Part shown: piece after piece, positions 3,172-41,787 of the stretch
How positions within the stretch are numbered: the first letter of the stretch is position 1
Layout: each line of letters begins with the position of its first letter
Source of the DNA: Watersipora subatra
Taxonomy: Eukaryota; Bryozoa; Gymnolaemata; Cheilostomatida; Watersiporidae
DNA: 64,000 bases
Direction of reading: 5' to 3'
Assembly: GCF_963576615.1 (NCBI RefSeq)
Contig: NC_088714.1
Span: forward strand, 65,825,667 to 65,889,666
Position numbers and translations under genes: made by a program
Notes under the pieces: model-generated
What the model was told of the DNA's origin: nothing
What the model saw: the letters and a program-made list of their open reading frames with translations, nothing else
Database searches by the model: none

Positions 3172-6100
3172 GTGAGACACAAACTTTGTTATTTCCTCTA
3201 TTGTATGGCAGCAAAATAAGCAATTGCATCTTGATGATGTAATGCTGTGTAACTGAGGGTAGTTGACAAACCAGCTAATCATTGATAGATCTTGCCGGCG
3301 TGTCACGAAGTATGTTGACCCTTAACACATGCCATACGAACTGATAGAATTTCATGTTGTGACTGAGAGGTTCCTCTTGTCTGAACTGCAGTTTACGTAG
3401 AAGAAAGAGTTGTATAATAATTTTATCTCGGATTTGATAAATTGTATTCAGTCAAACCTCGACAAAAGAAGTTGATCCAGATACTTTCTTCACTGAATCA
3501 AAGCTGTTCTCATCAAAATACATTGTATTTCGTTTAATCATTTTCAGAACACAGAAAACTTTACAATAAACACTTCAGATAATTATATACAGTATCAAAA
3601 TAAACACGTTGTAAAAAATTAAATTGTGTACATGTATAAGACATTAAACTAGTAAAATAATAACCAATAGAAAAGCTCAAGTTGTCATATTTCAATATTG
3701 CATAAAAACATGCGAGCCGAGGTATAACCTTGGTGTTCTCAAAGATAAACAGTGTGTAGGTACGAGGTACAGCCTTAGTGTTGTAGGGAACATGCAATGT
3801 ATAGATACGAGGTACAGCCTTAGTGTTGTAGGGGACATGCAATGTATAGATACAAGGTACAGCCTTAGTGTTGTAGGGGACATGCAATGTATAGATACGA
3901 GGTACAGCCTTAGTGTTGTAGGGGACATGCAATGTATAGATACGAGGTACAGCCTTAGTGTTGTAGGGGACATGTAATGTATAGATACGAGGTACAGCCT
4001 TTGTGTTGTAGGGGACATGCAATGTATAGATACGAGGTACAGCCTTAGTGTTGTAGGGGACATGCAATGTGTAGATACGAGGTACAGCCTTAGTGTTGTA
4101 GGGGACATGCAATGTGTAGATACGAGGTACAGCCTTAGTGTTGTAGGGAACATGCAATGTATAGATACGAGGTAGAGCCTTAGTGTTGTAGGGGACATGC
4201 AATGTATAGATACGAGGTACAGCCTTAGTGTTGTAGGGGACATGCAATGTGTAGATACGAGGTACAGCCTTAGTGTTGTAGGGAACATGCAATGTATAGA
4301 TACGAGGTATAGCCTTAGTGTTGTAGGGGACATGTAATGTATAGATACGAGGTACAGCCTTTGTGTTGTAGGGGACATGCAATGTGTAGATACGAGGTAC
4401 AGCCTTAGTGTTGTAGGGAACATGCAATGTATAGATACGAGGTACAGCCTTAGTGTTGTAGGGAACATGCAATGTATAGATACGAGGTACAGCCTTAGTG
4501 TTGTAGGGGACATGCAATGTATAGATACAAGGTACAGCCTTAGTGTTGTAGGGGACATGCAATGTATAGATACGAGGTACAGCCTTAGTGTTGTAGGGGA
4601 CATGCAATGTATAGATACGAGGTACAGCCTTAGTGTTGTAGGGGACATGTAATGTATAGATACGAGGTACAGCCTTAGTGTTGTAGGGGACATGCAATGT
4701 ATAGATACGAGGTACAGCCTTAGTGTTGTAGGGGACATGCAATGTATAGGTACGAGGTACAGCCTTAGTGTTGTAGAGAACATGCAATGTATAGATACGA
4801 GGTACAGCCTTAGTGTTGTAGGGGACATGCAATGTATAGGTACGAGGTACAGCCTTAGTGTTGTAGAGAACATGCAATGTATAGATACGAGGTACAGCCT
4901 TAGTGTTGTAGGGGACATGCAATGTATAGGTACGAGGTACAGCCTTAGTGTTGTAGGGGACATGTAATGTATAGATACGAGGTACAGCCTTAGTGTTGTA
5001 GGGGACATGCAATGTATAGGTACGAGGTACAGCCTTAGTGTTGCAGAGAACATGCAATGTATAGATACGAGGTACAGCCTTAGTGTTGTAGGGGACATGC
5101 AATGTATAGGTACGAGGTACAGCCTTAGTGTTGTAGGGGACATGCAATGTATAGATACGAGGTATAGCCTTAGTGTTGTAGGGGACATGTAATGTATAGA
5201 TACGAGGTACAGCCTTAGTGTTGTAGGGGACGTGCAATGTATAGATACGAGGTACAGCCTTAGTGTTGTAGGGAACATGCAATGTATAGGTACGAGGTAC
5301 AGCCTTAGTGTTGTAGGGGACATGCAATGTATAGATACGAGGTACAGCCTTAGTGTTGTAGGAGACATGCAATGTATAGATACAAGGTACAGCCTTAGTG
5401 TTGTAGGGAACATGCAATGTATAGATACGAGGTACAGCCTTAGTGTTGTAGGGGACATGCAATGTATAGATACGAGGTACAGCCTTTGTGTTGTAGGGGA
5501 CATGCAATGTGTAGATACGAGGTACAGCCTTAGTGTTGTAGGGAACATGCAATGTATAGATACGAGGTACAGCCTTAGTGTTGTAGGGAACATGCAATGT
5601 ATAGATACGAGGTACAGCCTTAGTGTTGTAGGGGACATGCAATGTATAGATACAAGGTACAGCCTTAGTGTTGTAGGGGACATGCAATGTATAGATACGA
5701 GGTACAGCCTTAGTGTTGTAGGGGACATGCAATGTATAGATACGAGGTACAGCCTTAGTGTTGTAGGGGACATGTAATGTATAGATACGAGGTACAGCCT
5801 TAGTGTTGTAGGGGACATGCAATGTATAGATACGAGGTACAGCCTTAGTGTTGTAGGGGACATGCAATGTATAGATACGACGTACAGCCTTAGTGTTGTA
5901 GGGGACATGCAATGTATAGATACGAGGTACAGCCTTAGTGTTGTAGGGGACATGCAATGTATAGATACGAGGTACAGCCTTAGTGTTGTAGGGGACATGC
6001 AATGTATAGGTACGAGGTACAGCCTTAGTGTTGTAGAGAACATGCAATGTATAGATACGAGGTACAGCCTTAGTGTTGTAGGGGACATGCAATGTATAGG

Positions 6101-9100
6101 TACGAGGTACAGCCTTAGTGTTGTAGAGAACATGCAATGTATAGATACGAGGTACAGCCTTAGTGTTGTAGGGGACATGCAATGTATAGGTACGAGGTAC
6201 AGCCTTAGTGTTGTAGAGAACATGCAATGTATAGATACGAGGTACAGCCTTAGTGTTGTAGGGGACATGCAATGTATAGGTACGAGGTACAGCCTTAGTG
6301 TTGTAGAGAACATGCAATGTATAGATACGAGGTACAGCCTTAGTGTTGTAGGGGACATGCAATGTATAGATACGAGGTACAGCCTTAGTGTTGTAGGGGA
6401 CATGCAATGTATAGATACGAGGTACAGCCTTAGTGTTGTAGGAGACATGCAATGTATAGATACGAGGTACAGCCTTTGTGTTGTAGGGGACATACAATGT
6501 ATAGATACGAGGTACAGCCTTAGTGTTGTAGGGGACGTGCAATGTATAGATACGAGGTACAGCCTTAGTGTTGTAGGGAACATGCAATGTATAGGTACGA
6601 GGTACAGCCTTAGTGTTGTAGGGAACATGCAATGTATAGATACGAGGTACAGCCTTAGTGTTGTAGGGAACATGCAATGTATAGATACGAGGTACAGCCT
6701 TAGTGTTGTAGGGAACATGCAATGTATAGATACGAGGTAGAGCCTTAGTGTTGTAGGGGACATGCAATGTATAGATACAAGGTACAGCCTTAGTGTTGTA
6801 GGGAACATGCAATGTATAGATACGAGGTACAGCCTTAGTGTTGTAGGGGACATGCAATGTATAGATACGAGGTACAGCCTTTGTGTTGTAGGGGACATGC
6901 AATGTGTAGATACGAGGTACAGCCTTAGTGTTGTAGGGAACATGCAATGTATAGATACGAGGTACAGCCTTAGTGTTGTAGGGGACATGCAATGTATAGA
7001 TACGAGGTACAGCTTTAGTGTTGTAGGGAACATGCAATGTATAGATACGAGGTACAGCCTTAGTGTTGTAGGGGACATGCAATGTGTAGATACGAGGTAC
7101 AGCCTTAGTGTTGTAGGGAACATGCAATGTATAGATACGAGGTAGAGCCTTAGTGTTGTAGGGGACATGCAATGTATAGATACGAGGTACAGCTTTAGTG
7201 TTGTAGAGAACATGCAATGTATAGATACGAGGTACAGCTTTAGTGTTGTAGGGGACATGCAATGTATAGATACGAGGTACAGCCTTAGTGTTGTAGGGAA
7301 CATGCAATGTATAGATACGAGGTAGAGCCTTAGTGTTGTAGGGGACATGCAATGTGTAGATACGAGGTACAGCTTTAGTGTTGTAGGGGACATGCAATGT
7401 ATAGATACGAGGTACAGCCTTTGTGTTGTAGGGGACATGCAATGTATAGATACGAGGTACAGCCTTAGTGTTGTAGGGGACATGCAATGTGTAGATACGA
7501 GGTACAGCCTTAGTGTTGTAGGGGACATGCAATGTGTAGATACGAGGTACAGCCTTAGTGTTGTAGGGAACATGCAATGTATAGATACGAGGTACAGCCT
7601 TAGTGTTGTAGGGAACATGCAATGTATAGATACGAGGTAGAGCCTTAGTGTTGTAGGGGACATGCAATGTGTAGATACGAGGTACAGCTTTAGTGTTGTA
7701 GGGGACATGCAATGTATAGATACGAGGTACAGCCTTAGTGTTGTAGGGAACATGTAATGTATAGATACGAGGTACAGCCTTTGTGTTGTAGGGGACATGC
7801 AATGTATAGATACGAGGTACAGCCTTAGTGTTGTAGGGGACATGCAATGTGTAGATACGAGGTACAGCCTTAGTGTTGTAGGGGACATGCAATGTGTAGA
7901 TACGAGGTACAGCCTTAGTGTTGTAGGGAACATGCAATGTATAGATACGAGGTACAGCCTTAGTGTTGTAGGGAACATGCAATGTATAGATACGAGGTAG
8001 AGCCTTAGTGTTGTAGGGGACATGCAATGTGTAGATACGAGGTACAGCTTTAGTGTTGTAGGGGACATGCAATGTATAGATACGAGGTACAGCCTTAGTG
8101 TTGTAGGGAACATGTAATGTATAGATACGAGGTACAGCCTTTGTGTTGTAGGGGACATGCAATGTATAGATACGAGGTACAGCCTTAGTGTTGTAGGGGA
8201 CATGCAATGTGTAGATACGAGGTACAGCCTTAGTGTTGTAGGGGACATGCAATGTATAGATACGAGGTACAGCCTTAGTGTTGTAGGGGACATGCAATGT
8301 ATAGATACGAGGTACAGCTTTAGTGTTGTAGGGGACATGCAATGTATAGATACGAGGTACAGCTTTAGTGTTGTAGGGGACATGCAATGTATAGATACGA
8401 GGTACAGCTTTAGTGTTGTAGGGGACATGTAATGTATAGATACGAGGTACAGCCTTAGTGTTGTAGGGGACATGCAATGTATAGATACAAAGTACAGCCT
8501 TAGTGTTGTAGGGGACATGCAATGTATAGATACGAGATACAGCCTTAGTGTTGAAGGGGACATGCAATGTGTAGATACGAGGTACAGCCTTAGTGTTGTA
8601 GGGGACATGCAATGTGTAGATACGAGGTACAGCCTTAGTGTTGTAGGGGACATGCAATGTATAGATACGAGGTACAGCCTTAGTGTTGTAGGGGACATGC
8701 AATGTATAGATACGAGGTACAGCCTTAGTGTTGTAGGGAACATGCAATGTATAGATACGAGGTAGAGCCTTAGTGTTGTAGGGGACATGCAATGTGTAGA
8801 TACGAGGTACAGCTTTAGTGTTGTAGGGGACATGCAATGTATAGATACGAGGTACAGCCTTAGTGTTGTAGGGAACATGTAATGTATAGATACGAGGTAC
8901 AGCCTTTGTGTTGTAGGGAACATGGAATGTGTAGATACGAGGTACAGCCTTAGTGTTGTAGGGAACATGCAATGTGTAGATACGAGGTACAGCCTTAGTG
9001 TTGTAGGGGACATGCAATGTATAGATACGAGGTACAGCCTTTGTGTTGTAGGGGACATGCAATGTATAGATACGAGGTACAGCCTTAGTGTTGTAGGGGA

Positions 9101-12100
9101 CATGCAATGTGTAGATACGAGGTACAGCCTTAGTGTTGTAGGGGACATGCAATGTATAGATACGAGGTACAGCCTTAGTGTTGTAGGGGACATGCAATGT
9201 ATAGATACGAGGTACAGCCTTAGTGTTGTAGGGGACATGCAATGTATAGATACGAGGTACAGCTTTAGTGTTGTATGGGACATGCAATGTATAGATACGA
9301 GGTACAGCTTTAGTGTTGTAGGGGACATGCAATGTATAGATACGAGGTAGAGCCTTAGTGTTGTAGGGGACATGCAATGTATAGATACAAAGTACAGCCT
9401 TAGTGTTGTAGGGGACATGCAATGTATAGATACGAGGTACAGCTTTAGTGTTGTAGGGGACATGCAATGTATAGATACGAGGTAGAGCCTTAGTGTTGTA
9501 GGGGACATGCAATGTGTAGATACGAGGTACAGCCTTAGTGTTGTAGGGGACATGCAATGTGTAGATACGAGGTACAGCCTTAGTGTTGTAGAGAACATGC
9601 AATGTATAAATACGAGGTACAGCCTTAGTGTTGTAGGGGACATGCAATGTATAGATACGAGGTACAGCCTTAGTGTTGTAGGGGACATGCAATGTATAGA
9701 TACGAGGTACAGCCTTAGTGTTGTAGGGGACATGCAATGTGTAGATACGAGGTACAGCCTTAGTGTTGTAGAGAACATGCAATGTATAGATACGAGGTAC
9801 AGCCTTAGTGTTGTAGGGGACATGCAATGTATAGATACGAGGTACAGCCTTAGTGTTGTAGGGAACATGCAATGTATAGATACAAGGTACAGCCTTAGTG
9901 TTGTAGGGGACATGCAATGTATAGATACTAGGTACAGCCTTAGTGTTGTAGGGGACATGCAATGTATAGATACGAGGTACAGCCTTAGTGTTGTAGGGGA
10001 CATGCAATGTGTAGATACGAGGTACAGCCTTTGTGTTGTAGGGGACATGCAATGTATAGATACGAGGTACAGCCTTCGTGTTGTAGGGAACATGCAATGT
10101 GTAGATACGAGGTACAGCCTTAGTGTTGTAGGGGACATCAATGTATAGATACGAGGTACAGCCTTAGTGTTGTTGAGAACATGCAATGTATAGATACGAG
10201 GTAGAGCCTTAGTGTTGTAGGGGACATGCAATGTGTAGATACGAGGTACAGCCTTAGTGTTGTAGGGAACATGCAATGTATAGATACGAGGTACAGCCTT
10301 AGTGTTGTAGGGGACGTGCAATGTATAGATACGAGGTACAGCCTTAGTGTTGTAGGGGACATGCAATGTATAGATACAAAGTTAGTCTAAAGTAAATTAA
10401 TATAATTTATGTATAATTCTTTATTTTCATTTTTGATATCTTTTTCTAATCATCATGTCCTTCTTATTTTTACACATTTCAGGATTTGTTTTTGTGCATT
10501 CTTTTACTTTTGCATAGAGGTGGAACGAGACAGGTTTTTTAAGTTCGAGACGAGACTCGAGACACTGTCTTGTGAAAAGTCGAGACTCGAGACACGAGAC
10601 AGTAAAATAAAGAGCATTTGGTGATGATTTCACTACACAAGTACCAGCTACTCGGTATATATAAATTAATAAATCTATTTTTAAATTGAATTTTCAACTG
10701 GTGTAAACGATTTAAATACAACATTTTAATTATTATAGTGATATGCATGTAGTTTTTGTAAACAAAAGTGACACAAACAGCTCTAAAATACCGAAGTTAT
10801 ATATTCTACGAATTTTGAGCTTGATTGATCATAATTATTTTAAACATATTGCTTTGTACATGTATATTTTTACCATCTATTGAATAGTTCTTACTTTTTA
10901 ATGTAATATGTAATGAAACCGATAGCCGTCGCTCTACAAAGAAATACCGCAAATAAAAAAACACACGATAATACTTTCATTCTTATTGTTTCATTAATGT
11001 TAAGTTTTGTTTATGTGTTAACTGTAGTATGTGAATTATATTTAAATTGTACTCATGAAATTATATTAATTACTGTATACATGTATATTCTTATATTGAG
11101 TTAACAAAACGTCATTGTTAACCGAACACGGACTATGGTCGACACGGCCTTTCGTTCGTTTCTCCGTGTCCGGGCAAGTTTTACCCGCGATTGGTAGTAT
11201 ATACGTAAAAGAGGCCCGAATTTTATGAAGGTCAGTTGGTGTTTAGACACGATACGATAAAATACAGACATTTTACCCGCAAAAGTTATCCAATTTATTA
11301 AAGTGGATTATCCGAAGAGCAATTAGATACGACCCGGTATCTGTTTTAAGAACACAGAACCGAACTAAAATATAACAGGGCCGTTGTCCGGACTACATGA
11401 TTAGACTCAGTGGCCAACATAATCAATAGCAACAGGTAGTAACGGACCGGGTAGAACTTTAAAGGCAGCTGCCCGCAATCCGTTACAATATATGGAGTTG
11501 TTGCTAAAGAAGCCATGTTTTAACGACCGTGCGCAGGCGCTTTAGTTCTATTTCCTGTCTCGAGTTTGGCAATAGTTAACTCGAGACGAGACCGATACGA
11601 GACGAGACAGGTCGATACTCGAGACGTCTCGTGTCTCGTTCCACCTCTACTTTTGCACAGCCGTAACTAGTAACTAGTAACTAGTTACTAGTTACTAGTA
11701 ACTAGTAACTAGTTACTAGTTACTAGTTACTAGTAACTAGTAACTAGTAACTAGTTACTAGTTACTAGTAACTAGTAACTAGTTACTAGTAACTAGTTAC
11801 TAGTTACTAGTTACTAGTTATTAGTAACTAGTAACTAGTAACTGACTTCGTAGAAGTTTTATAGAATTGATTTGGAGATTTTTGCTGAACTCTTTCTATA
11901 TGTTCTGGTTTCAGGTCTGAAGAAAGCCTTTTTCACCCCTTCTACCCTTATCTAGTATTTTAGAGATTTATAATTTTAAAACTATTGAAAACTTTGATAA
12001 ACAATTTTTAAACTATTAGAAAATGAAGGTGTAAACGCTGTTTACCATTATTCAAACATCGTAGAACCAAACAATGTGTTACTGGGTTACAAACTGTGGC

Positions 12101-15100
12101 CTTTTTGAGAAATTTCAGACGTCTTATGTTGAACATTTCTTTAGATGTTGCGACAGACATTTGAGCAAATTTTATGTCAATAAACTTGTAGACAAAAATT
12201 ATCTAAAGTCGATATTTGACTGTACACTGGCTTTTCTAAACACTCCATCCTTATAAAAACTAACTGTACTGACGTAAATTTTAGTAATAGAGTATTAAGC
12301 AGACATTTAGTATGAATATTTTAAAGCTCTTGGTATCTTCAAATGTTATTTAAATTTAACAAACACACGGTGAGTTTTTATACAGATGCCATCAACATTA
12401 ACATAAATCTATTGACGCAGGAACCTTAGTCTAAAATTCCTTTCTGGTTAGATAGACTTTAGTTTTGAATGTTTAGATTTTAAGTCTAAACATTCTGGGT
12501 GACTACTGCACCTGCGCTCCCTCCCAAATCCTCCCTGTTTACTGTATCGCATTTGGCAAGCATCCAGAGGGAGACAATCTAAATCATAAACTATGTGACA
12601 CTGAGATGTCTATGTATGTCTACCCCATACATCTCTAGCCGTGATTTTATCTATTGACAACACTGAGATGTCTACCCCATACATATCTAGCCGTGATTTC
12701 ATCTATTGACAACACTGAGATGTCTACCCCATACATCTTTAGCCGTGATTTTATCTATTGACAACAGCTAGTTGGTTCCACGAAGATACAATAATTCAAG
12801 TCAGTGCCCGGCATACCAGTTGCTGTTGTGGCAGCATTTCAACAATGGGTTGCTGTAATTGTAATTTAGGTGAAAGACGTTGTTGTCAGGTTTTTCTACT
12901 CCAAAGCCTCTCAATAAGATATATCCATCTCTCTCTACGGTTTGATTTCAGTTTTCATGCAAGTTTGGCTGTTACTTTAAACTTGAGTCCTATATCCTCA
13001 CATCGGCAACAGATTTTTAGTTGTACCAAGGTTAGCCTCAGAGTAGGAAGGAAGCACAAGGTTAGGCTATAGACTACCTTTAGTGTAATCTCCTTACAGA
13101 CCAAAAAGTGATTTCTATTCCAGCAGCTTTGGTATTTGACTCATCTTCCTAAGAGCTCCATTCAGACAGTCATTGCACCGTTTATGGCTGTTTACGGCTG
13201 TTCCTTATGTTTGTCCAACGCACAGAAAGAGAGAGGGTTGTGAGACACTCCATCAATATCACAGGACATTGCATATTAGAAAATAGCAGTGAAGAATATG
13301 CATTAGAATGATAATAATTTATTACTATTGTAACTAGTAGTAGTCACTCTATTACTATTGTAACTAGTAGTAGTCACTCTATTACTATTGTAACTAGTAG
13401 TAGTCACTCTATTACTATTGTAACTAGTAGTAGTCACTCTATTACTATTGTAACTAGTAGTAGTCACTCTATTACTACTGTAACTAGTAGTAGTCACTCT
13501 ATTACTATTGTAATTAATAGTAGTTACTCTATTACTATTGTAACTAGTAGTAGTCACTCTATTACTACTGTAACTAGTAGTAGTCACTCTATTACTATTG
13601 TAACTAGTAGTAGTCACTCTATTACTATTGTAACTAGTAGTAGTCACTCTATTACTATTGTAACTAGTAGTAGTAGTCACTCTATTACTATTGTAACTAG
13701 TAGTAGTAGTCACTCTATTACTATTGTAATTAATAGTAGTTACTCTATTACTATTGTAACTAGTAGTAGTCCCTCTAATACTATTGTAACTAGTAGTAGT
13801 CACTCTAATACTATTGTAACTATTAGTAGTCACTCTAATACTATTGTAACTAATAGTAGTCACTCTGTTACTATTGTAACTAGTAGTAGTCACTCTGTTA
13901 CTATTGTAAACAGTAGTAGTCACTATATTACTATTGTAACTAGTAGTAGTCACTCTATTACTATTATAACTAGTAGTAGTCCCTCTAATACTATTGTAAC
14001 AAGTAGTAGTCACTCTAATCCTATTGTAACCAGTAGTAGTCACTATATTACTATTGTAACTAATAGTAGTCACCCTAATAGTATTGTAATTAGCAGAAGT
14101 TATGGTACATTGAAAGTATCACTTGTATGTGGCACCAGCTAAAGTGTGTGAGCTGAAATTTTATATGCTTAGGCCCATTGCTTGATAGATATTTGTGTGG
14201 ATGCTGCATACCAGTTACTGTGTACTTACTGTATACTTACAGGTAATGAGTATCACTGTGTATCTACCCCGCAGACTGCATACACTCCAGTTGGCATCTT
14301 CAGTCTTCCTCCTGGAGGTCTAGACAGCCCATCTTCTTGCAAACTCGCCATAGCCAGAGATCTGTTTCGAAGCTCTAAGGCTAAACTGAAGATTACCATA
14401 CAATACTTCAATCGCACAAATGATTCGGGGTGTAGTGGAGCAAACTTGCTGGTAGCTAATATAAACAGGTGAATAGTGTATGTGATGTGGAGTACTTGCT
14501 GGTAGCTAATATATACAGGTGAGCAGTGTATGTGATGTGGAGTACTTGCTAGTAGCTAATATATACAGGTGAGTAGTGTATGTGATGTGTAGTACTTGCT
14601 GGTAGCTAATATATACAGGTGAGTAGTGTATGTGATGTGGAGTACTTGCTGGTAACTAATATATACAGGTGAGTAGTGTATGTGATGTGTAGTACTTGCT
14701 GGTAGCTAATATATACAAGTGAGTAGTGTATTTGATGTGGAGTACTTGCTAGTAGCTAATATATACAGGTAAGTACAGTCATTCACAAGTGCCTTATTTG
14801 TAAATTTAGCGAGCCGGGTATTAGCTTGCCCAAATTATTCATTGGCAATATGCCAGACTAATGGCAAGTGGCGAGCAACTACATTACCTGCCACCGTTTT
14901 ATCATCTGTTTTAATACCTGTCTAGCGCTGAGCATTTCGCTACTCTAACCGCAAGTGTAATAATAGGGTAATAGTTGTAATAGATAAGAGAGCACAATTC
15001 CTTAGAGGCGCTGGCTCCAAACAGACTGCAATCTTTTCATTCGGTACACAAAAAGACGACTCACCAATCACACTTGTGCTTTAGCAATGAAGGAAACTGA

Positions 15101-18100
15101 ATAACATCGAGGCTACAAACACCTACACAGGCATAGCTTATGGATATGCTGTGCATAATAGGATGAATCAGCTGTGAATGCCATTTAGCTGAAAACTATC
15201 ATAATATCATATTGTTACCCACAGCTATCACTATATGTGCCATTTTAATTACCACTCTGCCTATCCGCTATAGTCCTGTTCTTAATCTCCCCTTGTTTCC
15301 AGATGGTTTCTGATCAATGACATCAAGTATTCATACATAGAGATACAATGTAGAAACCTCTAATGGAAGCTCTCAGTTTATGTGGTTTGTTACAGCTATA
15401 AATGTTGCCACAAATAAACTATTTCATGCGATTTCATTTCACAGCTTTTATGTGACAAAGCTGTTAGACAAGATTAAGGTGAATTTTTATTGTGATGAGC
15501 TGCTGTAAAGGTTGGATTAAACATCAACGTTGATAAGATAAAGATAAGACAAAGATAATACATAAAGGAAATTTCTTTGCATTTCCAAGTTTAACTGTAC
15601 ATATGAATCTCACAATTATAATCTTTGTTTTAAAAACTTTATAAAAATCAACTCTTGTTATTTCAGCTTCGCATATCACACTTGAGTGTCAAGGAGTAAT
15701 TCTCATCACTTCATACTCTTCGCATATCACACTTGAGGGCTGTCAAGGAGTAATTCTCATCACTTCATACTCTTCGCATATCACACTTGAGTGTCAAGGA
15801 GTAATTCTCATCACTTCATACTCTTCGCATATCACACTTGAGTGTCAAGGAGTAATTCTCATCACTTCATACTCTTCGCATATCACACTTGAGTGCTGTC
15901 AAGGAGTAATTCTCATCACTTCATACTCTTTGAAGACATACAATTCTTACCATCTCCATTGTTTCACTGATAGGAGGCTAGTCCTTACCATCTCCATTGT
16001 TTCACTGATAGGAGGCTAGTCCTTGCCAAGTGACTTTAAAGATGTGATTGTGTCAAAAAAGTCGATCAAATGATATTAAACCATAACTGTCACGAACAAC
16101 TTTTATCGTTGTTCCTAGGTAAATCAGACACGCTAATTCCGATTTTGTACTCAAAATAAAGATTAGTCCACTAACCTTCAAAGTCATTTAGGCTTTTTTA
16201 AAGCGTTTCAATATCCGTTTCGAAAAGAACACAATCGGCATCACAAGCTCCGCCCATAAATATGTGACGAAACCTAGCTTTTTCAGGAACGGAAGTTAGG
16301 AATGTTTAGTCCGATTTAGAATAATAGAGATGGGTGTCTTAAAACCCATTATTATCTAAATCCAGCCTGTAAAATAATTTCAGATTTTTATGAAAGGTAT
16401 ATAAACTATTTGAAATTGCTCGTAGCTTGTTACATGACATTTAAATGGGCTGGACGCCGAGGAAAATGAGCTCAAAAAGCGCAGTTTTATCACAAGCTAG
16501 CGTTGTTATCGCGCTTTTTTAAATATGCAATGTTAAATAGCTCATCTACCTTTCAGAAAAGACTGATATTATTTTTAAGGCTGAATTTAGATATTAATGG
16601 ATTTTAAAACACCCATATCTATTATTCTAAATCGGTCTAAACATCCCTACGTAACTTCTGTTACTAAAAAGCTAGGTTACGTCACGTATTTATAGGCGGA
16701 GCTTGTTATGCTGATCGTGTTGTTTTCAAGACCGATATTAAAACGCTGTAAAAAAGCCTTCATTACTCTGAAAGTTAGTGGACTAATCTTTATTTTGAGT
16801 ACAAAATTGGAATCAGCGTGTCTGATTCACCTAGTAAATACGATAAAAGTTGTTCGTGACAGTTACGGTTTAAGGTTAATAAAAGGCTGAAAGATCAGCT
16901 ACAGTTTGGTGTCATTCTTGTCTTTGTAGACCAACCCTGTCCAGAGATATAAGTGTTTGAATGAGATCATTTTTTGAAACACTCAAATTCGAGCGGGTGC
17001 TTTATTCGGGACTTATGATACATCTGAAAAGAGTCCACGAGCAATAAATATAAGATCTCTTCTTTAGCCAATCATCAGCGCGGAATTTTCATATAGAAAT
17101 ATCCTAATCTGTCATACACCTCCTTCTCTTGAACTTGTTGCATATGATTCCTACTTTTATTGTTTGGGCCAGTTTCCGATAGTAAAATTTCATTCAATGT
17201 GATTTTAATTAAAAATGTAAAATAAAAGAAATACTTAACTAAGTATAGATAACCTCAAAATGACTTGCTGATACCATAAATCAATAGAAATACAAAAACA
17301 TCACAGATTAACAACCATAACATGTTAACAGCCATAACAGGTTAAAAATCTTTACAGGTTAACAACCACCACTGGTTAACAATTATAACATGTTAACAAT
17401 TATAACATGTTAACAATCATAACATGTTAACAGCCATAACGTGTTAACAATATTAACAGGTTGACAACTATAACATGTTAACAACCATAGTTACCATAAC
17501 TTAATTCTGGCTATTGAAAATTGATCTGCTAAAACTTACACTATTTGGTCACACACGATCTGTTCTGCCTCTATGGCGATGGTGTACCTGTATAGAGGTA
17601 TATACAGGTGTGTGTGTATATATATAGGTATAGGTGGTATATATATAAAAATATACAGGTGTGTATACACCTGTATACAAGTGTGCATATACCTATATAC
17701 AGGTATATACGTTCACACCAGTATATAGGTATATATAAACCTGTACATATACCTGTATACAGATGTGTATACACCGATGTGTATACACATCTGTACTTAG
17801 GTGTGTATACATATCTAGGTACAGATGTGTATACACATCTGTACCTAGATGTGTACATCTAGGTGTACACATCAGGTGTATACATCTATGTATACACCTG
17901 TCTACAGGTGTATACACACCTGTATACACCTGTATATACCTGTACCATCACTCACCATCTTACCCTTCTCACCCTTGGTACCACCTCCTACTCTCCCTTC
18001 TCTCGGCTTTGCAACTGAGCCAGTTAACATCATGTGACTAAATTTAAAGGCAGAGCAACTAATAATCTAGTTTTTCTCAGATTTAGATTTCCATAGAAGT

Positions 18101-21100
18101 GCACCATCGCCATAGAGGCAGAACAGACTGTGTGTGACCAAATGGTGTAAGTTTTAGCAGATCAACTTTCAGTAGCCAGAATTAAGTTATGGTAACTATG
18201 GTTGTTAACATGTTATAGTTGTTAACATGTTATGATTTTTAATATTGTTAACATGTTATGGTTGTTATACATGTTATAGTTGTTAACCTGTTAATACTGT
18301 TAACATGTTATGGTTGTTATACATGTTATGGTTGTTAACCTGTTAATATTGCTGGCATGTTATGGTTGTTAACATGTTATAGCTGTTAATCTTTTATGGT
18401 TGTTAAGCTGTTATGGTTGTTAATCTGTTATGGCTGTTAAGCTGTTATGATCATTACTCTGTTATGGTTGTTAGCATGTGGTGGTTATTAATCGGTGTGG
18501 TATACACCTGTATACAGATGCACCATCGCTCACACAGGGTATCCAGGTGTTTCATCGCTCACATTTCGGTGTATACACACCCGTATAGCCCAATCAAAGC
18601 TGGTATACACACCTGTATACTCCAGTCAAAGCTGTAGTGCCAATTAAAACAAAGACCAGTTGTCACAAATTTGATGTATTTGTAGCTCATAGACTATAGT
18701 TATTTAAGCACATGCATGGCTAAGGCTATGCTCTGAGATATTATTCATTGTTTATATTGAGACTTCTCTAGTTTGCTGTCACAACTTGATTTAATTTGAC
18801 CTACCTGTCAGTACAGTTTTGTTAAAAGCAACTGGTCGGTTGACCTAGATAGCTTTACTTCCTGTTTATTTTGTTCTATTTTTAATAACTCACTGCACTT
18901 CTCATACATCTGCAACCATCTCCTGAGTAGCAGAGACTGCGCCGGAGATTGTAGCAAATTGCTTTTCTATTGTTTTGTTTGTGGAGAAAGGTTAATAAAC
19001 TACACTACTATAGCGGTTATAGATAATAAATTAGTGTCATATTGAGTCATAATTCTCATGTACCGACCAAATAAGAGTGGAGTGCAAATGATGCTGCCTT
19101 CATTGGCAGCTCTCATTCATGAGCCTCTTTAGCAATGTATGCAGTAATACACTTTCTGACATCACCTGCTACTAAGTGTCAGTAAATGCGGGTAGGGAAG
19201 GTGGCGCCTCATACCTATTACCGTAAAATCTCTATTTGAATGCCATGGCGCTTTATTTTTCAATCCTCCTATAGTGGCGATCAAATAGCGAGAAAACGGA
19301 CTTCAATACAAACAAAAACAACGAAAGAATTAATTGTCATTAATGTAAACGAGTCAATATTAATACGATTTTGTGGACGCTTTACTACTGATCACCTTTT
19401 ATTATGGGCTTGGAAAGATTGAAGAATGCCAAAGTAAAGGTCAAATGGAGGCGGTGTTCAATTAAGGGGTGGCGCTCTATTTTTCAATCCTTCTCCTACA
19501 GTGGCATTCAAATAAAGGTTTTACGCTACTGTCACTTGAAAATGGGGTCTGATTCTGCATACAGTCGATCTTTATTAAAATAGACCCACTAGACAGAATA
19601 TCGGACTATAAATGACTCACAATGGTAATAAAGATTATTTCATCATATCGTTTGTGTGCTATTCGACTTTCTCGATGGTGGAATACAATTTTATGATTTA
19701 TAAATATGTTAAAAACCACAACATTAGTTTGAAAGAGTAACTTATTTAATATTCAGTACAACAAAACATTTGTAATACCATGGGTAAATGGAAATTTCTA
19801 CAAATAATTTGCTCTAGCAGGAGTTGTATAACCTGTTGCTATTTTTTAGAACTTTCTGCAGCTTTGAAATTTTCTTTGTTACAGGCTACTGAGGCTAGAT
19901 ATTTTAAATTATCTACAATGTAATGTACAGTACAAAATAGGCCTACAGTGTACAGTACAAAGTAGGCCTACAATGTAAATAATCCTTGTTAACGTTTTCC
20001 TTCATATAGACCTACCGTAAAACCTCTAATTGAATGCCACCCTTTTATTGAACACCACCTCTATTTGACTGCCACTCTGGCATTCTTTGATCTTTATGAA
20101 CCCTTACTAGAAAGTGATCAGTAGAAAAGTGTCCACAAAATTGTGCTAATAATGACTTGATTACATCAATAGCAATTAAGTCTTTAATTGTTTTTTTTTT
20201 CGTATTGAAGTCTGTTTTCCAACCCTAAAACTTTTCAGTTTTTTTGCTACAACTTTGAAAGTAACACCACAGAAATAATTAGCAAAACCTATGTATACCA
20301 TAAAGCCTCTATTAGAGGTTTTACGGTATACATGGCACATTGGTAAAACTTGACAATCGGCTAAACCAGACCACCTACCACCCTTATTAGTCCATTTTAC
20401 TGAGGGTCAAATGTACTTTACATATGGAAATCAAAGTCATAGTGTAGCCTATAACAGTTATTGGTTTGTTATCAATCTGAACTAGTGATTTCCTAAATGA
20501 AATAGTACATTCAATGACTTGATTGTGCTCTGCATAATTGTCACGAGACTAAATTGTTCCCCTTCCTTAAATAATAATTGATATGTCAACTATTTTTTCA
20601 CTTTGTGTATATTTCACAGGTATTGCAGTTCAATCATGAACAGAACCATAGAGATCAATGAGACGTCTACATCGTCTGCACCGCTTGAGGTATCATATCA
20701 GAGAGGAATCTCTAATAATCCAAGCTTTCTCATTCGCTACGTGATCTACAATGAAGTATGCGAACAGACTGAACCTATAAGTGCCACCCCTGTTGTCATA
20801 CATCAATCACATGGTCCCTCTTACGCTGACAGCAGGTGCTTCCTTAGCATCCTCACCTCTGAGGCACATCTACTCCTTGTATCGACATTGTCCATAGACA
20901 GTGAATCTGGGATCTGCTCTTCTACAGACGCTGTCTACTTAGAAACTGAGCTAGGTCTTAAATTATGTCAAGGAGTCGAATGTCTTATTTCTGATGGGAT
21001 CAATATTACTGGGTTACCGATGATCAGGGTAGAACTTCAGCAGGGCTATAACTGCGGATTCTTCTGGATGTTCACTAGTGAGTCTATCGTGCAATGTTTT

Positions 21101-21449
21101 AGAAACCAGAACGTTTCAAGATTTACAAGACCAACGGTTTGTGTGCACGTGTGTGTGTACGTGCGTGTGCGCACGTATGTGTGTGTGCGTGTATGTAGGT
21201 GTGCGTGATCATCTAGACAATTCTCGCTAAAATTGACTAATAGGCATGGTGGGTGGTCCATTTACGTGAGTGGTCTGGTTTAACCAATGTGTCGCTATAT
21301 AGGTCTATATATACAGTAAAGCAATTCCCATATACACTGCACTATATACTGTGTACTATTATAATTACTTCTATATTCAGTCATACTTTGACCTACGAGC
21401 TTAATGCGTTCTGGGACTCGTATGTCAATTTACTTGCATGTGGGTGCAA

Positions 21450-21480
<31 letters not shown>

Positions 21481-24400: not shown

Positions 24401-27400
24401 TACCAGTATACCGTCGTATTTAGAGTTTTGATGGATAGCTGTTGGTGGAACAGCGACCTTTTTATACACACACCTCTATGCAAGAATTGTTATTATTAAT
24501 TCAACATATTCACGAGTTTTATTTTGTTTTCTCAGTTTGTATTAATTGTATCATTACCAAATCATCTCATATTGTAATCGTAGCAAAACCGACTCAATTT
24601 AGCTACTACTTGCTAATTATTTCACATTTACATCTAAACCCTTTTATAGTCATTTTATTTTTTTAATTTATTTGACTTGCACAAAACATTTTTCTCATGA
24701 TATGAAGTTTAAAAGTTGTTTGACAAAGTTTGAAAACCTTTGCAGTTGTTTTTAGGTAGAATGGCAAATGTTGTTATATGTTAAATACAAATCAATTTTC
24801 TGTTCACAGACTTTTTTATTACTCGGGCAACGCTGGGTTGTACAGCTAGATGTATTAGCTTACACATCTTTCCTTTTAAACCTAACAAATTAGTTTTTCG
24901 TAATTAATTTTACATTTTACAACAAACATTTGTAAGATTACTGTAAGATTTATCGTGTAAGATTACAAGTATCAGATATTCCTCACTATCTTATATTTAC
25001 ATACATTTACATATTTAAATTCTCTTATCACATTTATAAACTTCTTATAACTTTTGAAGTTTATAATAAAAGTTTTTTAAAATTTGTTTCATCGTCGTTA
25101 TTATTTCAACTTGCATTCTTTTAAACATAATTTGAGTACCGTGTTTGAAGTTTAAACATTGTTCATTTTCCTATCACTGTTATTATTACTTGATTAGTTT
25201 CCAATCTTTATTATTAATATTATTCTTTTATTCAATCATTTTTGGCAGACATTGTTCTAATAAAATCTTAACTACAAAATACTACCATATCCTGTCATAT
25301 TTTTTCGATCGTCGTATTCAAAGAATTGATGGATAGCTTCTGATGGAACAGTAATCTTTTTATACCCACACTTTTATGCAAAAACTGCTATTAATAATTC
25401 AAGATATTCATGAATTTTATTTTGTTTTCTCAGTTTGTATTAATTGTATCATTACTGTATCATCTTTTATTGTAATTATCACAAAACCGACTTAATTTAG
25501 CTATAACTTGCTAATTATTTTACATTTACATCTAATCCCTTTTACAATTGTTTAATTTTTTTTAATTTATTAGACTGGCAGAAAACATTTTCCTCATGAT
25601 ATCAAGTTTGAAAGTTTCAGTTGTTTGACAAAGTTTGAAAAACTTTACAGTTGTTTTTATTTCCTCTCAAATTATTTCAACTACACAAAACACTTTTCTC
25701 ATGATATATAGTTTAAAAGTTAGAATGGCAAATGTTGTTACATATGTTAAACACAAAGAAATTTTCTGTGCAGACGTTTTTATTACCCGGGCAACGCCCA
25801 AGTACAAGTACAGCTTATGGTGTAAAATAGCAACTACATACAAGTACAAGCTTAGCAAGTATATATAGCTTATGGTGTAAAATGTTGAAAAAATACTTTA
25901 CCGTAGTTGTTTTCTCGCCTTGGAGCGGATTAAAATTTACATAATTTTATTTTAATGGGAAAAATTGTTTTGGATCTTCGAGAACCGAGGTTCCACTATA
26001 CGTTATCAAAGGATATAGGTCGCTGAAAGTTATGAAATTTTAAATTTACATCGGTTTGAAAACCTTTACAGTTGTTTTATTTATTTTTAAATCAGTTGTC
26101 TTGCACAAAACCTTTTCCTCATGATATGAAGTTTGAAAGTTGTAGTTGTTTGAAAAAGTTTGAAAACCTTTACAATTGTTTTGTTTTCTCTCTTAATTTA
26201 TTTCAACTACACAAAACAATTCTCTCATGATATGTAGTTTGAAAGTTAGAATGGCAAATGTTGTTATATGTTAAATACAAATCAATTTTCTGTCAAAAGA
26301 CTTTTTTTACTACCCGGGCAACGCCGGGTAGCACAGCTAGTGTAAAATATGTTAAACAAAAATAAATTTTCTGTGTCACAACTTTTATTACGCGGGCACT
26401 CAACCAGTAACTGTATATACTTTAAAATATATACCCTATGAGCAAAAGCGAAAAAAATTCTAAGCTGCGGAATATTTTTAAAATAACAATAGAGGTTAAA
26501 CAACTCCAGTAATGAGACACTATTTGTGAAAATTTCCCATAACTGGAGTTGTCTGTTCATGTGAAGAGTTCAAGTTTAATTACAAGTCTGCAAGTTTAAT
26601 TTTTGCTGAATATTATATAAATTACTCTTTCAAACTTAATTTTTGGTTTTCTAACATTTATAAATCGTAAAATTATATTTCGCCATTGTGAACGTCGAAT
26701 AGCACACAAACGATAAGATGGAATAATCTCAATTACCATTGTGAGTCATTTATATGAACAACTTCAATAGACAAGGGTTTCTTACATTTTATAACTCTAA
26801 ATTGTTACTAAAAATCATTATAAATCAATTATCAATTGTTTGAACATAACTTTACTTTGATTGCAGCTGCTATGCCCAAATTTGTCCATCTTATCCAGTC
26901 TCATGGGGTCCATTTTAGCAGGAGTCGTCTGTTCAAAAGCTACCCAAAAACACCAATAGTTAATTAGGCTGAGTTCTATTTTTCCGCTTTTTGATTGGTT
27001 GATTGATCTTCAGAAAACAATGCTCTTTTCCTTTGCAGCACAATCTCGAATTACTGCTATGGACATCTGCTCACAGACAGGAAATGAACTCTCATTGCCC
27101 GAAGGCAGCATAAGTAGTCCTGGATACCTGAGTGGTTTCTCTGGACCGTTAAACTGCACTATAACTATATCTCCCAGGTAGGCATCAGAAATCATCAGTC
27201 AATTGGAGTGCTATTAGAATAACTGTCATCTGATTGGTTGATACTAGCTGACTGCTCAAATAAACAAAGCCTTTCTTGTTAGCTGATCAAGGTCATACTT
27301 GGTCATGTGATATGGCTGGTATGTGATGACTTGGTCATACAACATGGCAGGTATGTGATGACTTGGTCATAAGATATGGCAGGTAAGTGATGACTTGGCC

Positions 27401-30400
27401 ACACAAGATGGCGGGTATGTGATGAATTGGAACTGTTGACACTAACCACAGCATTCTAATCAAATTCGCATTCCTTTCATTTCTCTATCAATCTTTCAAG
27501 TTCAATTTTAGAAAATGTTATTTTTATTATAACCAATTTGTAGTCATGTTCTTTCATTCTATGCAGAAAATTTAATAAATTCACATTAAGAGTAGCACCA
27601 CAGTTTCATGCTATGATGTGACAAATAGAATATTACAACTTGCTCATTCATTCAAAGCAATCGGCAAGTCAGCAAGTCAGCAAGTTAGCAAGAACATGAA
27701 ACAGTTCAAACTGACTAGAGAAGCTCAATTGAGTCAGCACTGTGTCGATGGAAAATATTATATCACTCTCCTTTAGTTTCTCAGTTTATATAATTCTGAT
27801 CTTTTTGCTACTTACTGTCCGTTCTGCTAAACCTTAAAGTTACACATAAGAGTAACACTATTTGTGTTTGTAATTAGAAGGTAAAAGAGTGACTCAAATG
27901 CCTAAAATAATTTTAAGATAAATTTTAAACTCATTGTCTCAAAAAAGAATAATAGATTATGTTTAGTGGAGGCAGCTGTCAATTATAAAAAAAATTTTTT
28001 TGTTTGCATCCAGCGTAATATAAAATAAATTACAAACATGTTGGCTATAAATTTTATATAACTATAGTTGTAAATATGCTTAACAATGTTACAAAAAGTT
28101 CTGGTCTTTGTCTTTATAATTGTGGATCAAGGAGACCATATTCTCTCGTTTCACAAATCCTTCTTTCATATCTCCAACTCCATCATCTATGATATGCTTT
28201 ATTGTTATATAAAAACTCAGGCGACTCTCTACTTTCAGTAGAACCTAAAACACTATGACGAGTGTTCTCTACAGTGATTCTAGTCTGAGAAATATTTATT
28301 TAGTTGTAATGACGACACTGCAGGTGGAGCTGATTTTACAGCAGCTATGGAAGTGACAAGACACCTTCCCTCACTGTTAACATGCTGCCACTTAGCAACT
28401 TTTCCTATTGGTTCCTTACTTCCTTTTCCCTTTCCTATTGGTTCCTTATTTCCTGTCCAACAGCACCTTTACACTCTCTTCCTTGACTTTGTGAAGGTGC
28501 CTTTCAGCTCACGCCTCAACTGCTGCTTCTCGACAATCTTTCTCTCCTCCTTCCATCTTTTCCTCTCTCCACTAGTGATTTACAGGAATCCTGCCTCCAC
28601 TAGGGACTCACCGAGCCCTCCTTCGAGACGTAACGTCGTGATTCCCTTTCTCCTCTCCTGATAACAGAAAGCGTGGCTGGTAAGGTTTTGGTTGGTGATT
28701 CCGCTCTGCAACCTATTTCTGGACATTTGTTTCTATGAGAGTTCACTGACTTTAATTTCATACACTGTAGGCATGTTTTCAACCTTATATGAATGACTGC
28801 GAGTAAATCAGTCATTCTGATGCATTAAAAGATATTTAAAAAGTTGCTATTGACAAGGTTACTCAAAAACTGGCATTTCAAAAATTAACATAAACAAAGT
28901 CAAATGGTGGGCGACATTGACATGTCGACAATTGTTTACCTCACCATTATGATTTTGCAATGGTTGTTTTTTTACCGCTGATTTTTCGGCTTCAGCTACT
29001 GGGTTCCAAATTATTTTGCCCGAACAAATTTTGGCCCCTCACAGTTTGGCGCCGCTTATTATTATTATTACTGGCCCACTATACTTGTTACTCATTGCCT
29101 GAATCACTTTTAGAATTCTTTTGTTTGTCTACTTTCCTAGTTTAATTAAATCCAAACATTGCAGTAATGATTTATAATAATAATATCCATTTTTCATTTT
29201 ATTCCAAAGTTATTTCTTTATTTCGTCGCTAAGCTGTACGAGGCCAGAAGCGTTATCGTCAATAAATAATAGAGACAAAACATTGATTTCAAAATGGTGA
29301 GGCAAAAAGCTCTAACCATATGAGGTAGCATTGATATGCTTCTTATCGGTGTTGTGGAATAATGTAGCACATCGTTTATTGTCTGGAAGTTTACTAAATA
29401 ATTGTGATATCTTTAGAGAGTTTGTACAATCAGCTTGTAGCAAACAAGCAGGTTGTAACTTTATTGTAACAGGTTGTAACTGCAAACAAACCTGTAACTT
29501 TTTACAGGTTTGACATAGTAGCAGTGGACCTTAAGTATTATAACTTGAAGCAGAGGCCCTGTCAGGACTCCCTCAATAACAACCCTTGTTACTGCGGAGA
29601 CAGGCTAGTAATAAACAAGACAGCCAGCTGTGGTAATATGGTTGGAGCCCGTAGGAAATTTTACCAGATGGAGAGGCCACTGACAATTGAGCTGCTGACC
29701 CTAGCTGACCTCGGCACTAATAATGGTTTCTATCTCAGCTACCAAGGTAGTTTTACCTGCTGACATCTCTCAGCCTTCCTCTGCGGCATACTCTAAGGTT
29801 GTACTCTGAAATTGTTGACTATAAAGTATCACATCATGTGAGGGGTTGAGTTTAGATTTATAAAAAAACAATATACTGGTATCAAATCTACTAGTTACCT
29901 GTCAGATAGCACTATAATGTGACTCACAGGCTATGAGAATGCCGTTGACATCTGTGCAGACAGACAGAAGTTGTCTCTTCCTTTACTGGTGAAGTCTCCT
30001 AGCTTTCCGGGCAATTACCCTGGAGTAGGGAGCTGTCAGGTAAGAATAAAAGGCTAATCTCCATCATATGGTTAGATACTCACCCATCTTAAAGCCTTAG
30101 GCTATAGTGAACAATGACTGAGCTGTAAACTAGATATGAGTTGTCATGAAGCTACAAATCCTATGAACAGTCTGTTAGCAATACACCGTAAAACCTTTAT
30201 TTGAATGCCATGTCGCTCTATTTTTCAACCCTTCTCTTAGAGTGGCTTTATTAGAGATGACATTCAAATAAAGGGTGGAGTTTTTTTTAAACACCTCATC
30301 AGAATGTTGAGAAAGATAAATTTCAATTTTCGATTCAGCCTTTCATGGGTCCAATCGAATGTCGCCCATATTTTGCACTCTCCTTAGGGCGGTGCGACAT

Positions 30401-33400
30401 AAACCTTTTTGAATGCAAGAAATTTGCTAACTTTCCTCTAACTTGTCATACTCCAACTCGTTAAATAAATATGCACGAGGAAGCTGATAAATGTACATGT
30501 AAAGAGTGGCGCTCTATTTTTCAACCCTTCTCCCATAGTGGCGTTCAAATAAAAGTGGCATTCAAATATAGGTTTCACGGTATGCATTGTCCTACCGTCA
30601 TTATTAAGGTTGTCACTTATAAAATGTGAAATAATGTGAAATATGACATACACTCGCGTTTACAGATGAATGTGGATGTGGCAGGAGTTGACAGACTCCT
30701 TATAGAGTTTTTAGTGTTTAACATAGAAAGGGATGACACCTGCTCAATAGACTATCTATCTATAAATGGTCGGAGGTTAGTACAATTACAGTACTCTATT
30801 GCTGCCTGATTGGCTCTGAACTCAATGACTGTTCCTATCTTTTATTAGTTTCAGGGTAAAAAATAAATGCTCTAAAACACCCAGAATTGTTGCTATTGGG
30901 TTAGTAGGATTCTTTTACAGTGACGCAGAGCAATCTCAATAGTGATACTAGTTGTCAGCTGTCGTGCAACAAGCTACACTAGAGTGAAAGAAAGCATTGA
31001 AGTTGGGTACATAGTTTCAGAGCTAAACTAAATGGACGCTAACTTGTGCTAGGATTTTGCTTATGAGAGCACAACTCTTATCGTAAACTTTTCCTAAAAG
31101 TGCACTAACTTCAACTATATTTACATCTATTTCACATCTCTGACAGGTTCTGTGGGAACCGTGGAGGTGATAGCAAGAAACTGGATTTATCTTCTTCCGC
31201 CGTTTCTTTACAACTGAACTTTAAGTCTGACACATCTGGTGACCACCAAGGATTCTATATCAGCATAGACAAATATGTAACTGCTAGTACTACATCAACA
31301 ACTTCAAGTACAACTATACCGATGTCTATGGCTGCTACAATTACTTCAAGCAGTAAGCTTCTTAGCTTCTGAGCTAAAACTCAGCGTTCTTCTTACACAG
31401 TTGTCTCCCCATACTTGATTTTTGCTTTTGTCCTATTTGTAGCCGAGGCCAGCAAAGTCAGCATATCATCTGCTTACTCGGCAGCAGCAATGAAGCAAGG
31501 AACAGAAATAACTGCCACATATAGTGAAATCACTACAGAAGGTCAGTAAAGACCCAACTTAGCACGCTCTATTCTCAATTTCATTGTACAACTTTTGTTA
31601 TTTCTCATGGTTCTACTAGTACAAAGGCTGTGGTCTGCTTACAGATGGCGAGTCTGTCAACAACCATATGAGATATTCTCAAAACGGGAAGAACACAAAA
31701 TCAATCAGACAAGAAAATGTTACTCAGTCACCCAATAGTAAGTACAACAAAATGCATCCCTTTCCAGGATTCTCTAAGTATGTCTGTAACTCTGGATTGA
31801 TTGTACCGAACTTATGTTTGACAGATGAAAGTGAAGCAGCTAGCCAAGAGTGTAACGTACCCTGGTACTACTGGATTATAACAATCATAGGCATCCTCTC
31901 TGCAGTTCTTATCACCATGACGATATTCCTAATCAAACTCAAAAGGTCTGGTTGTCACTCACCTGGTTATCACTTAAAGGTTGACTTGCAACAAAATTCA
32001 CATTACAGTTATTTGGTATCAAAAGATTCACCATGTCTTACTCTGTTGTGTTGTAGGTGCAAAATACGTGGAAATGTGATTACAAGCTCTTAAAAGCTCA
32101 AAAACGAACAGTTAATCGCAGCCACACAAGACCGCCATAGTTTGGATTCTCTTTGCAAAACGGCTCAAATGTGATGTAGTTGTGGTAGATGGTTTCTGTT
32201 TACACTTTCATGCAACCTTATTCGTCAAAATATTTTCACAAATATACTTCACGCATTCAATAAAACCATGTCTATTGTTCTTACGTGTCTATTTTATCGT
32301 CATTGTAATGCTGTCACTTTTAGCAGTGATACCTTATAACTTACCGTAAAAATTCATTAAAGTTTTTAACCTTAGCTCGAAGGAGTGCATATCATTGTTT
32401 GATAATCATTACGAGCCTGTTGGTCACCTGTGATAATCGAAAAGTGCTGCAAAAATTATTTGCGAAGTTTTGGGTCACATGATCAGATTACGACCTGACG
32501 ATTAGTTCAAGCCGAACAAGATTGTAAAGTAGCAAGCATCTATATTTAATACGGGGTCTTCGGTAAAACCCTAAGTGTTTGTCATAAACTAGTGCTACGA
32601 TAAGTTTATATTGAGCTTTTTATTGGCCTTTCAATTCATGTGAGAACATCACGTGACAAGACAATAACCAAATGATCATGACTACGTCAGAGAAATAAAG
32701 AGATTCCAATTTACGGCGGCTTTTAGTTTTTGAGTTTTTAAGAGCTTGTAATCACATTTCCACATATTTAGCACCTTCAACACTACAGAGTAAGACATGG
32801 CGAATCTTTTGATACCAAGTAACTCTAATGTGAATTTTGTTGCAAGTCAACCTTTAACTAAATGAGTAGCGCGTGTGCATAAATTGCTACTTTCAATATT
32901 TTGCTGAATTGTAATTTTAATGGTGTCTATTTAAAGGAAACAGAACTTTTCAAGTAGATGCTGGGCTTCCTCATGACCTAGTAATCAGGAAAGACTCGTT
33001 ACGAGTCAATACATTGCCCCAGTATATGATATGAGCAGCAGGCTTGAGTTATCTAACTCTGATTGTATCCAAAACATTCAGTGCTTAAAGATGTATTCTC
33101 ATCGCTGTTCCAAGTTTTAAAAATATCTCAAAGCTGGACAGTATATAAAAACTAGTTTTCCAAAGTTTGGGTTATGGAAGCAAGCATTTGGTCAAAAAGA
33201 TGACAACAGATATTTTAATACATTGTATATATGTATATATAACTTTTTATTGACATTGGTGATCAAGAAAAATGTTTTTTTTCGTTATAATTATACGAAA
33301 AGAAAGAAATCAGGAATTATTTATTTAGTTGAACAGACGTGCTTTAAAAGTTAGTCATCCAGCATTATTATAGAGGAGTCGTGATTGTGTATTGAACTTT

Positions 33401-41017: not shown

Positions 41018-41787
41018 TCATGAGTTATAGTTGTGTGACTTGTGCTTATTGTAATCTATGTCACATCATGAATATACTGCAAAGACTACCATGCTCTGCT
41101 TGAAACACAATGATGAGCAATATATTCAAGCGAGACATAAAACTAATAATGGATGGATAAATATCAAACTCATGGAGGTGTAATTCTATAAAATACGCAA
41201 TCTTTGAGAGAATTTCATCCTCTAACAATATTCTAGTTAATAATAAAGTAAATTGACTAGGAGTAAGCTGACATGAAAGGAAGACAACTCCGATGACAAC
41301 AAGTAACCATAGTTAAAAGCCGTACTCGAGAAAGTGAATAACTCTATGGAACAATAATATAGCCAGCTACAACAATAAAACAAAACTCATGTAATGTGAA
41401 TCCTACTTGATAAGCATAATAGTTCTAACCAGAAAATTACTCTGACAAATAAAACGCAGCTCTGATATCTACAGACAATTGCAATTCATTCAACAACGCA
41501 TTAGCAAGTAATACAAATTCAGTAATATCGTAGACTATACTCAAATTAGCTCCATGCAGCAACAAAACACTTTTGGTCATGGGTAACATCTGGTTTCCTC
41601 TGAATAAATAGTGTAACTTTGTCACATCGATGCAATGGTAAATGCACCTCTAGCAGCTCTTTCCTATTGCAGCAGTTGTAACGAGTGAACGCATTTGAGT
41701 GTTTGTGCAAGTGAAGCTTGCATGAAATGATGACAGTAAATGAGCAAGCCAATAGTCTTGTAACGAGTTTGTGTAGTTCCTAACAAT
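41018..41787. other. Spacer without recognisable features
   Basis: No exon, repeat or RNA gene seen. Confidence 0.5.

Follow-up and report, generated by a model that had tools for sequence, protein, structure and literature searches.

The boundary between exon 2 and intron 2 of a gene with CUB-like modules (gene 1) in the bryozoan Watersipora subatra carries seven tandem copies of a 50-nucleotide (nt) unit. We regard this array as probably a minisatellite of the mirage type described in lancelets, with position 14468 still serving as the end of exon 2. The array was analyzed in a window of 64,000 nt, the whole stretch under study (contig NC_088714.1, positions 65,825,667 to 65,889,666 of the forward strand, assembly GCF_963576615.1); positions given are those of the window. 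A second splice that removes leftover units is proposed below as a more tentative addition.

The exon 2 boundary and its copies

A preliminary description of this DNA had claimed that the exon 2 end and its GT donor were amplified as a 50-nt unit with six extra copies, and an array of this kind was recovered at 14429-14778. The seven copies were gapless, with the junction at unit position 40|41. Tandem Repeats Finder (TRF) called a period of 50, 6.6 copies and 93% matches at 14444-14775, and a repeat search of the window returned seven places spaced by exactly 50 nt. Donor-like junctions were located at 14468|69, 14518|19, 14568|69, 14618|19, 14668|69, 14718|19 and 14768|69, with the hexamers, in copy order, GTGAAT, GTGAGC, GTGAGT three times, GTGAGT preceded by CAA, and GTAAGT. 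The expectation of at least five good donors resembling CAG|GTGAGT was borne out, as CAG followed by GTGAGT, GTGAGC or GTAAGT was present in five of the seven copies; the junction was AG|GT in every copy except copy 6 (AA|GT). Only the last 25 nt of exon 2 had a clear counterpart in the unit (24 of 25 positions identical between copies 1 and 2); weaker similarity upstream of 14444 was within chance, with 903 of 5000 random segments scoring equally well. Differences from the consensus of copies 2 to 6 numbered 1, 1, 1, 1 and 2 in these copies, 11 in copy 1 and 5 in copy 7; judged from these counts, the divergence of copies 1 and 7 is the usual pattern of edges escaping homogenization.

A search of the whole assembly (784 Mb, 239 contigs; very common words skipped) matched the array at a single place, its own. 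No match came from Rfam, from a tRNA search or from one viral-contig search by exact pattern. Overlap between an array and a splice site was in itself expected: when 17 arrays with a period of at least 10 in the gene region (from 34 arrays merged by hand out of 66 TRF rows) were placed randomly, at least 1 of 35 splice sites was covered in 94% of trials, and 1 was observed. Hiding of donors by RNA structure was considered and found to be unsupported, because shuffled sequences folded just as stably as the array (z, 0.06).

Parts of two genes were modeled by hand from open frames and consensus splice sites. The eight modeled exons of gene 1 (14243-31541) gave 528 stop-free codons, in a model that begins after the first exon and ends before the exons beyond 31541; a putative membrane-spanning stretch in the frame at 31620-32093 was judged by eye. 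The joining of exon 2 to 20620 that had been suggested earlier was upheld by an open frame in phase 2 (...LLVANIN-R-YCSS...) across an intron of 6151 nt. The module at 29930-31352 was identified by Pfam as CUB (E, 9.3e-12); CUB-like modules 1 to 3 were unrecognized by Pfam, and exon 2 had no match of its own. When module 1 (exons 2 and 3) was aligned with the Pfam-positive CUB module, only 7 of 2000 shuffles did as well; the corresponding numbers, again out of 2000, were 49 for module 3 and 590 for module 2. Module 1 and the Pfam-positive module have a phase-2 intron at the same aligned residue (...VANIN-R-YCSS... and ...INGR-R-FCGN...), so that the position and phase of the exon 2/3 boundary equal those of exons 7/8 in the model. 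Because this residue and phase are common to the two modules, 14468 is the expected exon end independently of site strength, and it is the likely end of exon 2 although later copies score as better donors. When the protein of exons 2 and 3 was searched in the assembly, only its own two exons matched at an E value of up to 0.1 among the best candidates scored, and therefore no paralogue offered a view of the donor as it was before the duplication.

Translation past the first donor met TGA at once, as had been stated, and each of the six later donors led to a stop at the first new codon if the units (50 to 300 nt) were kept. The earlier conclusion that any later donor would yield truncation or decay would hold under that condition. 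Truncation is nevertheless not inevitable, as the preliminary description had missed that five of the six added units end in AG and that a retained unit is thus a GT...AG stretch (GT in 6/6 and AG in 5/6 added copies), which could be spliced out.

The array, the frame, the common CUB intron position and the AG|GT structure are shown by the sequence, as are the relative site scores and the further arrays described below. We infer a history in which tandem duplication brought the exon 2/intron 2 boundary (a minimum of 25 nt at the exon end and about 25 nt of the intron) to seven copies, with ordinary minisatellite turnover as the source, and in which 14468 would still be used in the messenger RNA (mRNA). 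Copies 2 to 7 would be intronic and would have no regulatory job. They would most likely be tolerated because the exon ended in AG, which makes nearly every added unit a GT...AG stretch. Whichever donor fired first, a second splice running from 14469 to the AG of a unit further on could then take out the leftover units, in multiples of 50 nt; this "splice closure" would restore the same exon end and the same mRNA, and truncation would be avoidable. We put forward the closure step tentatively and consider it somewhat unlikely.

Table. Modeled features of gene 1 and of its exon 2 boundary (donor scores are from the window matrix described below)
Feature	Coordinates	Strand	Basis
Exon 2, 226 nt; starts in phase 1, ends in phase 2; first half of a CUB-like module	14243..14468	+	hand-built model
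Tandem array of seven 50-nt copies	14429..14778	+	TRF, repeat search, copy alignment
First donor, GTGAAT, 7.34 bits; likely the real exon 2 donor	14469..14474	+	intron position and phase common with exons 7/8
TGA read if a later donor is used and units are retained	14470..14472	+	translation
Donor-like copies 2 to 6 (14519, 14569, 14619, 14669, 14719), 8.8-11.3 bits	14519..14724	+	window matrix
Donor-like copy 7, GTAAGT, 11.69 bits; runs on into the remaining intron	14769..14774	+	window matrix, copy alignment
Exon 3; starts in phase 2, ends in phase 1; rest of CUB-like module 1, followed by module 2	20620..21077	+	in-frame joining
Further exons: 27039-27177, 29508-29746, 29930-30039, 30666-30775, 31147-31352, 31443-31541	27039..31541	+	hand-built model

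Other arrays in the genome and the window

Further donor-motif arrays were sought directly in the genome. A search for three CAGGTRAGT motifs 35 to 55 nt apart found 606 triplets, compared with 133 for the reversed motif, and at a spacing of 39 to 69 nt there were 794 compared with 151; these counts are of triplets and not of arrays, and with one 28-bp array filling most listed places of the 39- to 69-nt search they indicate a trend only. Sixteen places were examined, three from the 39- to 69-nt search and the rest from the 35- to 55-nt search, taken in listing order from C1 and the beginning of C2. The open-frame test excluded L040 and L073, whose arrays extend to the border of the retrieved stretch or continue upstream of the first listed unit. 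In 5 of the remaining 14 arrays, an open frame of at least 60 codons ran up to the first unit boundary, against a background of 10.8% of 594 GT positions (the window and three loci). The probability of at least 5 of 14 at that rate was 0.013, with array starts placed by eye and the cutoff of 60 codons chosen after the values were seen. The window array, with 98 open codons, stands outside this count.

In L063, an 81-residue frame matched axonemal dynein heavy chains in PDB (DNAH3, residues 1 to 80, E of 2.7e-36; the best chain, residues 1 to 81, E of 2.3e-36, is listed under another molecule name), while Pfam gave a weak AAA_9 match (E, 0.12) despite these strong dynein matches. Its 52-nt unit consists of the last 46 nt of the exon plus GTGAGT, and 17 copies were added. 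The frame of L067 matched the dynein P-loop region in Pfam (AAA_7; E, 6.3e-8); its best PDB matches were midasin (1.9e-8), with dyneins weaker (about 1e-4). Its 49-nt units begin exactly at the donor, and the array looks wholly intronic. In L034, the 34-nt units come shortly before the next exon, which resembles DUF676 (E, 5e-4; 20.0 bits against a cutoff of 20.3); the L034 exon at the array was unrecognized by Pfam, and FAM135 is a guess at the identity of the gene. On the reverse complement of L034 (5956-9539), a 37-bp array with 96 copies begins about 16 nt past the next likely donor (GATG|GTGAGT), and arrays therefore appear at the 5' ends of two successive introns of this DUF676-like gene. 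L072 and L074 had open frames and exon tails found in the unit, and homologue searches with them gave no match. Over the six exon-end arrays (the window, L034, L063, L067, L072 and L074), GT was kept in 59 of 61 added copies and AG in 55 of 61; tracing the copies by their similarity over the junction favors these bases, three stretches were cut short, and the fractions stand without a background rate. L068 and L069 proved to be one repeat family. Seven places with the same 36-bp donor-like array, of which two were examined, lie within 0.63 Mb (G000:C1:55199148-55828644) and are perhaps a duplicated gene family.

The genes of the window, with their CUB and trypsin domains, look like those of an animal, and minisatellites are plentiful. 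Gene 2 (36314-40965) is of the form CUB-CUB-trypsin (Pfam CUB, 5.2e-52; trypsin, 7.5e-63). At 27297-27430, about four 32-bp units carrying donor-like CAG|GTATGT and CAG|GTAAGT form an array that starts 120 nt past the gene 1 donor at 27177 and does not touch the exon. Arrays of 40/42 bp with GAAGTAAGC units were seen at 39124-39502 in a trypsin-gene intron, the first 221 nt past its donor. Very large minisatellites lie at 3753-10377 (147 copies of 45 bp) and at 41780-45483 (3.7 kb of units based on 26 bp). Open frames of a retroelement of the type without long terminal repeats were found at 47121-50241, one of them matching RVT_1 (E, 6.2e-13); an open frame at 261-923 resembles a Tc1/mariner transposase; and inverted ends GAGGTGGAACGAGAC ... 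GTCTCGTTCCACCTC around 1.1 kb (about 10517-11647) look by eye like a nonautonomous DNA transposon.

Splice-site strength and alternative explanations

Relative site scores were computed with a donor matrix built from the 16 other donors in the gene models of the window, which were themselves scored leave-one-out, a slight handicap. Copy 1 scored 7.34 bits, copies 2 to 5 and 7 scored 10.5 to 11.7 and copy 6 scored 8.78; the 16 other donors ranged from 1.9 to 9.5. Computed pairing with the 5' end of U1, using an assumed U1 sequence, was -11.1 to -11.7 kcal/mol for copies 2 to 5 and 7, -8.4 for copy 1 and -5.2 for copy 6. Eighteen real acceptors scored 1.6 to 9.9 bits, and the median AG of the window scored -3.0.

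Several of these results weigh against the mirage reading or its closure step. The donor at 14468 was the weakest of the seven, and by strength alone the higher scores of the later donors predict mis-splicing. As acceptors the AGs of the added copies were poor, at 1.4 to 2.5 bits (-4.3 in copy 6), a level below which only 2 of the 18 real acceptors fell (1.64 and 1.70, with a third at 2.86), and the pyrimidine share at the unit AGs was 0.40 compared with 0.47 to 0.87 at real acceptors. The shortest modeled intron (85 nt) is longer than the unit, so that only removals of 100 to 300 nt would be of usual size. Within copies 2 to 6 the donor motif was not better conserved than the rest of the unit (2/45 against 4/205 differences, a comparison of little power). 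Finally, 9 of the 14 arrays tested in the genome had no long open frame (L035, L036, L037, L061, L066, L068, L069, L070 and L071), and donor-motif arrays therefore also arise away from exon ends. Scored in this way, the unit AGs of the window array are weak but not hopeless. The best unit acceptor scores were 11.1 bits in L034, 8.7 in L063, 6.3 in L067, 4.7 in L072, 3.0 in L074 and 2.5 in the window, which is thus the weakest of the six cases for closure. A general rule that the true donor is the weakest was also considered and rejected, as it held in only two of the six exon-end arrays (the window and L067); the first donor equaled the best copy in L063 and L074, and some copies scored lower than it in L034 and L072.

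The nearest alternative shares every step of the proposal except the last: the first donor would always be used through exon context, and the later copies would be decoys that are never chosen, with no two-step removal. The weak unit AGs fit this explanation, as does the normal splicing stated for lancelet mirages (PMC3087553), but the first donor would have to prevail over copies 2 to 5 and 7, which exceed both its own score and those of all 16 other donors and pair better with U1 (copy 6 pairs less well). We regard it as a serious possibility, if not quite a probable one. If the stronger donors instead won, as their scores and the TGA would allow, most transcripts would carry a stop and the gene would be failing in this individual or lineage; the eight stop-free exons (of a gene whose ends lie outside the model) and the intact CUB intron site make such damage improbable. 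The preliminary description had favored a switch or a selected splice-site buffer, and neither was sustained: a later donor alone cannot give intact protein, and the donor motif was not specially conserved among copies 2 to 6. A poison switch, with later donors used under some conditions to give a truncated secreted fragment or decayed mRNA, would agree with the immediate stop from all six later donors and with their all outscoring the first. It is nonetheless very improbable, as donor quality showed no sign of constraint among the copies, the array was found once in the genome, and similar arrays lie at the ends of unrelated exons, as expected from a general repeat process. Tandem arrays are prone to assembly error, and the copy number might have been inflated in this way; with copies that differ among themselves, an array of only 350 nt and other arrays of the same kind in the same assembly, we think this hardly credible.

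Relation to known systems

In lancelets, mirage minisatellites repeat an exon/intron boundary in tandem together with its AG/GT signals, in units of 10 to 160 nt; they are described in Adh3, the globins BflGb6 and BflGb9 and troponin C, with similar repeats in PGBD5; they reportedly leave regular splicing undisturbed and the mRNA normal (PMC3087553, PMC3902484). The window array shares the placement and the signals: its unit spans the boundary, as placed by the frame and the CUB intron site (25 exon nt, 24 of them identical, plus the donor side), and its intronic copies carry the AG/GT signals. As in BflGb9, the 3' boundary of the exon is duplicated, whereas in BflGb6 the copied part is the acceptor side. 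The lancelet arrays are reported to vary between haplotypes and to leave the mRNA normal, while the window array is known from the sequence of one assembly. The copy number of lancelet mirages varies, and haplotype differences are reported for one (PMC3087553); by analogy, the variation between individuals that had been suggested for the window array is plausible. A literature search of partial coverage found no further report of mirage-like arrays elsewhere; tandem repeats that alter human gene structure have been described (PMC2812944).

Two other systems resemble the array in part. At recursive-splicing ratchet points (PMC8605326) AG and GT are juxtaposed, the donor is regenerated after a first splice and the intron is long; in the window the juxtaposition and the long intron are present and the donor would likewise be regenerated, but the sites lie 50 nt apart beside the exon rather than deep in the intron, and the candidate acceptors at the AG|GT of five of six added copies score just 1.4 to 2.5 bits, compared with 1.6 to 9.9 for real ones. 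Introns can be gained through tandem duplication of an AGGT segment, and fission yeast is reported to have introns that extend over two or four such duplicates in a row (PMC4974935). There too the AG|GT duplication supplies both splice sites and the product can stay unchanged; in the window, however, there is no new intron with exon sequence on both sides, as copy 7 continues into the existing 6.15-kb intron and the copies lengthen that intron at its 5' end. We therefore place the window array in the mirage kind already described, probably rather than certainly, and offer the second splice as an attractive but unproven proposal that can be tested.

An exon whose own donor has been copied several times, with copies that outscore the original, is a natural test of how a donor is chosen, whether by order, by strength or through second splicing. 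With several such arrays in one genome, one of them in a dynein heavy-chain exon, that question can be tested by ordinary RNA sequencing, and the arrays also bear on the origin of introns from tandem duplications. That a number of exon ends in this genome grew GT...AG chains which the spliceosome removes stepwise, each unit being a tiny recursive intron, is a more speculative idea that we think rather unlikely. If it were true, such splice-closed arrays would let minisatellites on the donor side expand and shrink with the mRNA unchanged, 5' splice sites would be nurseries for minisatellites and new introns, and the harmlessness of lancelet mirages would be explained.
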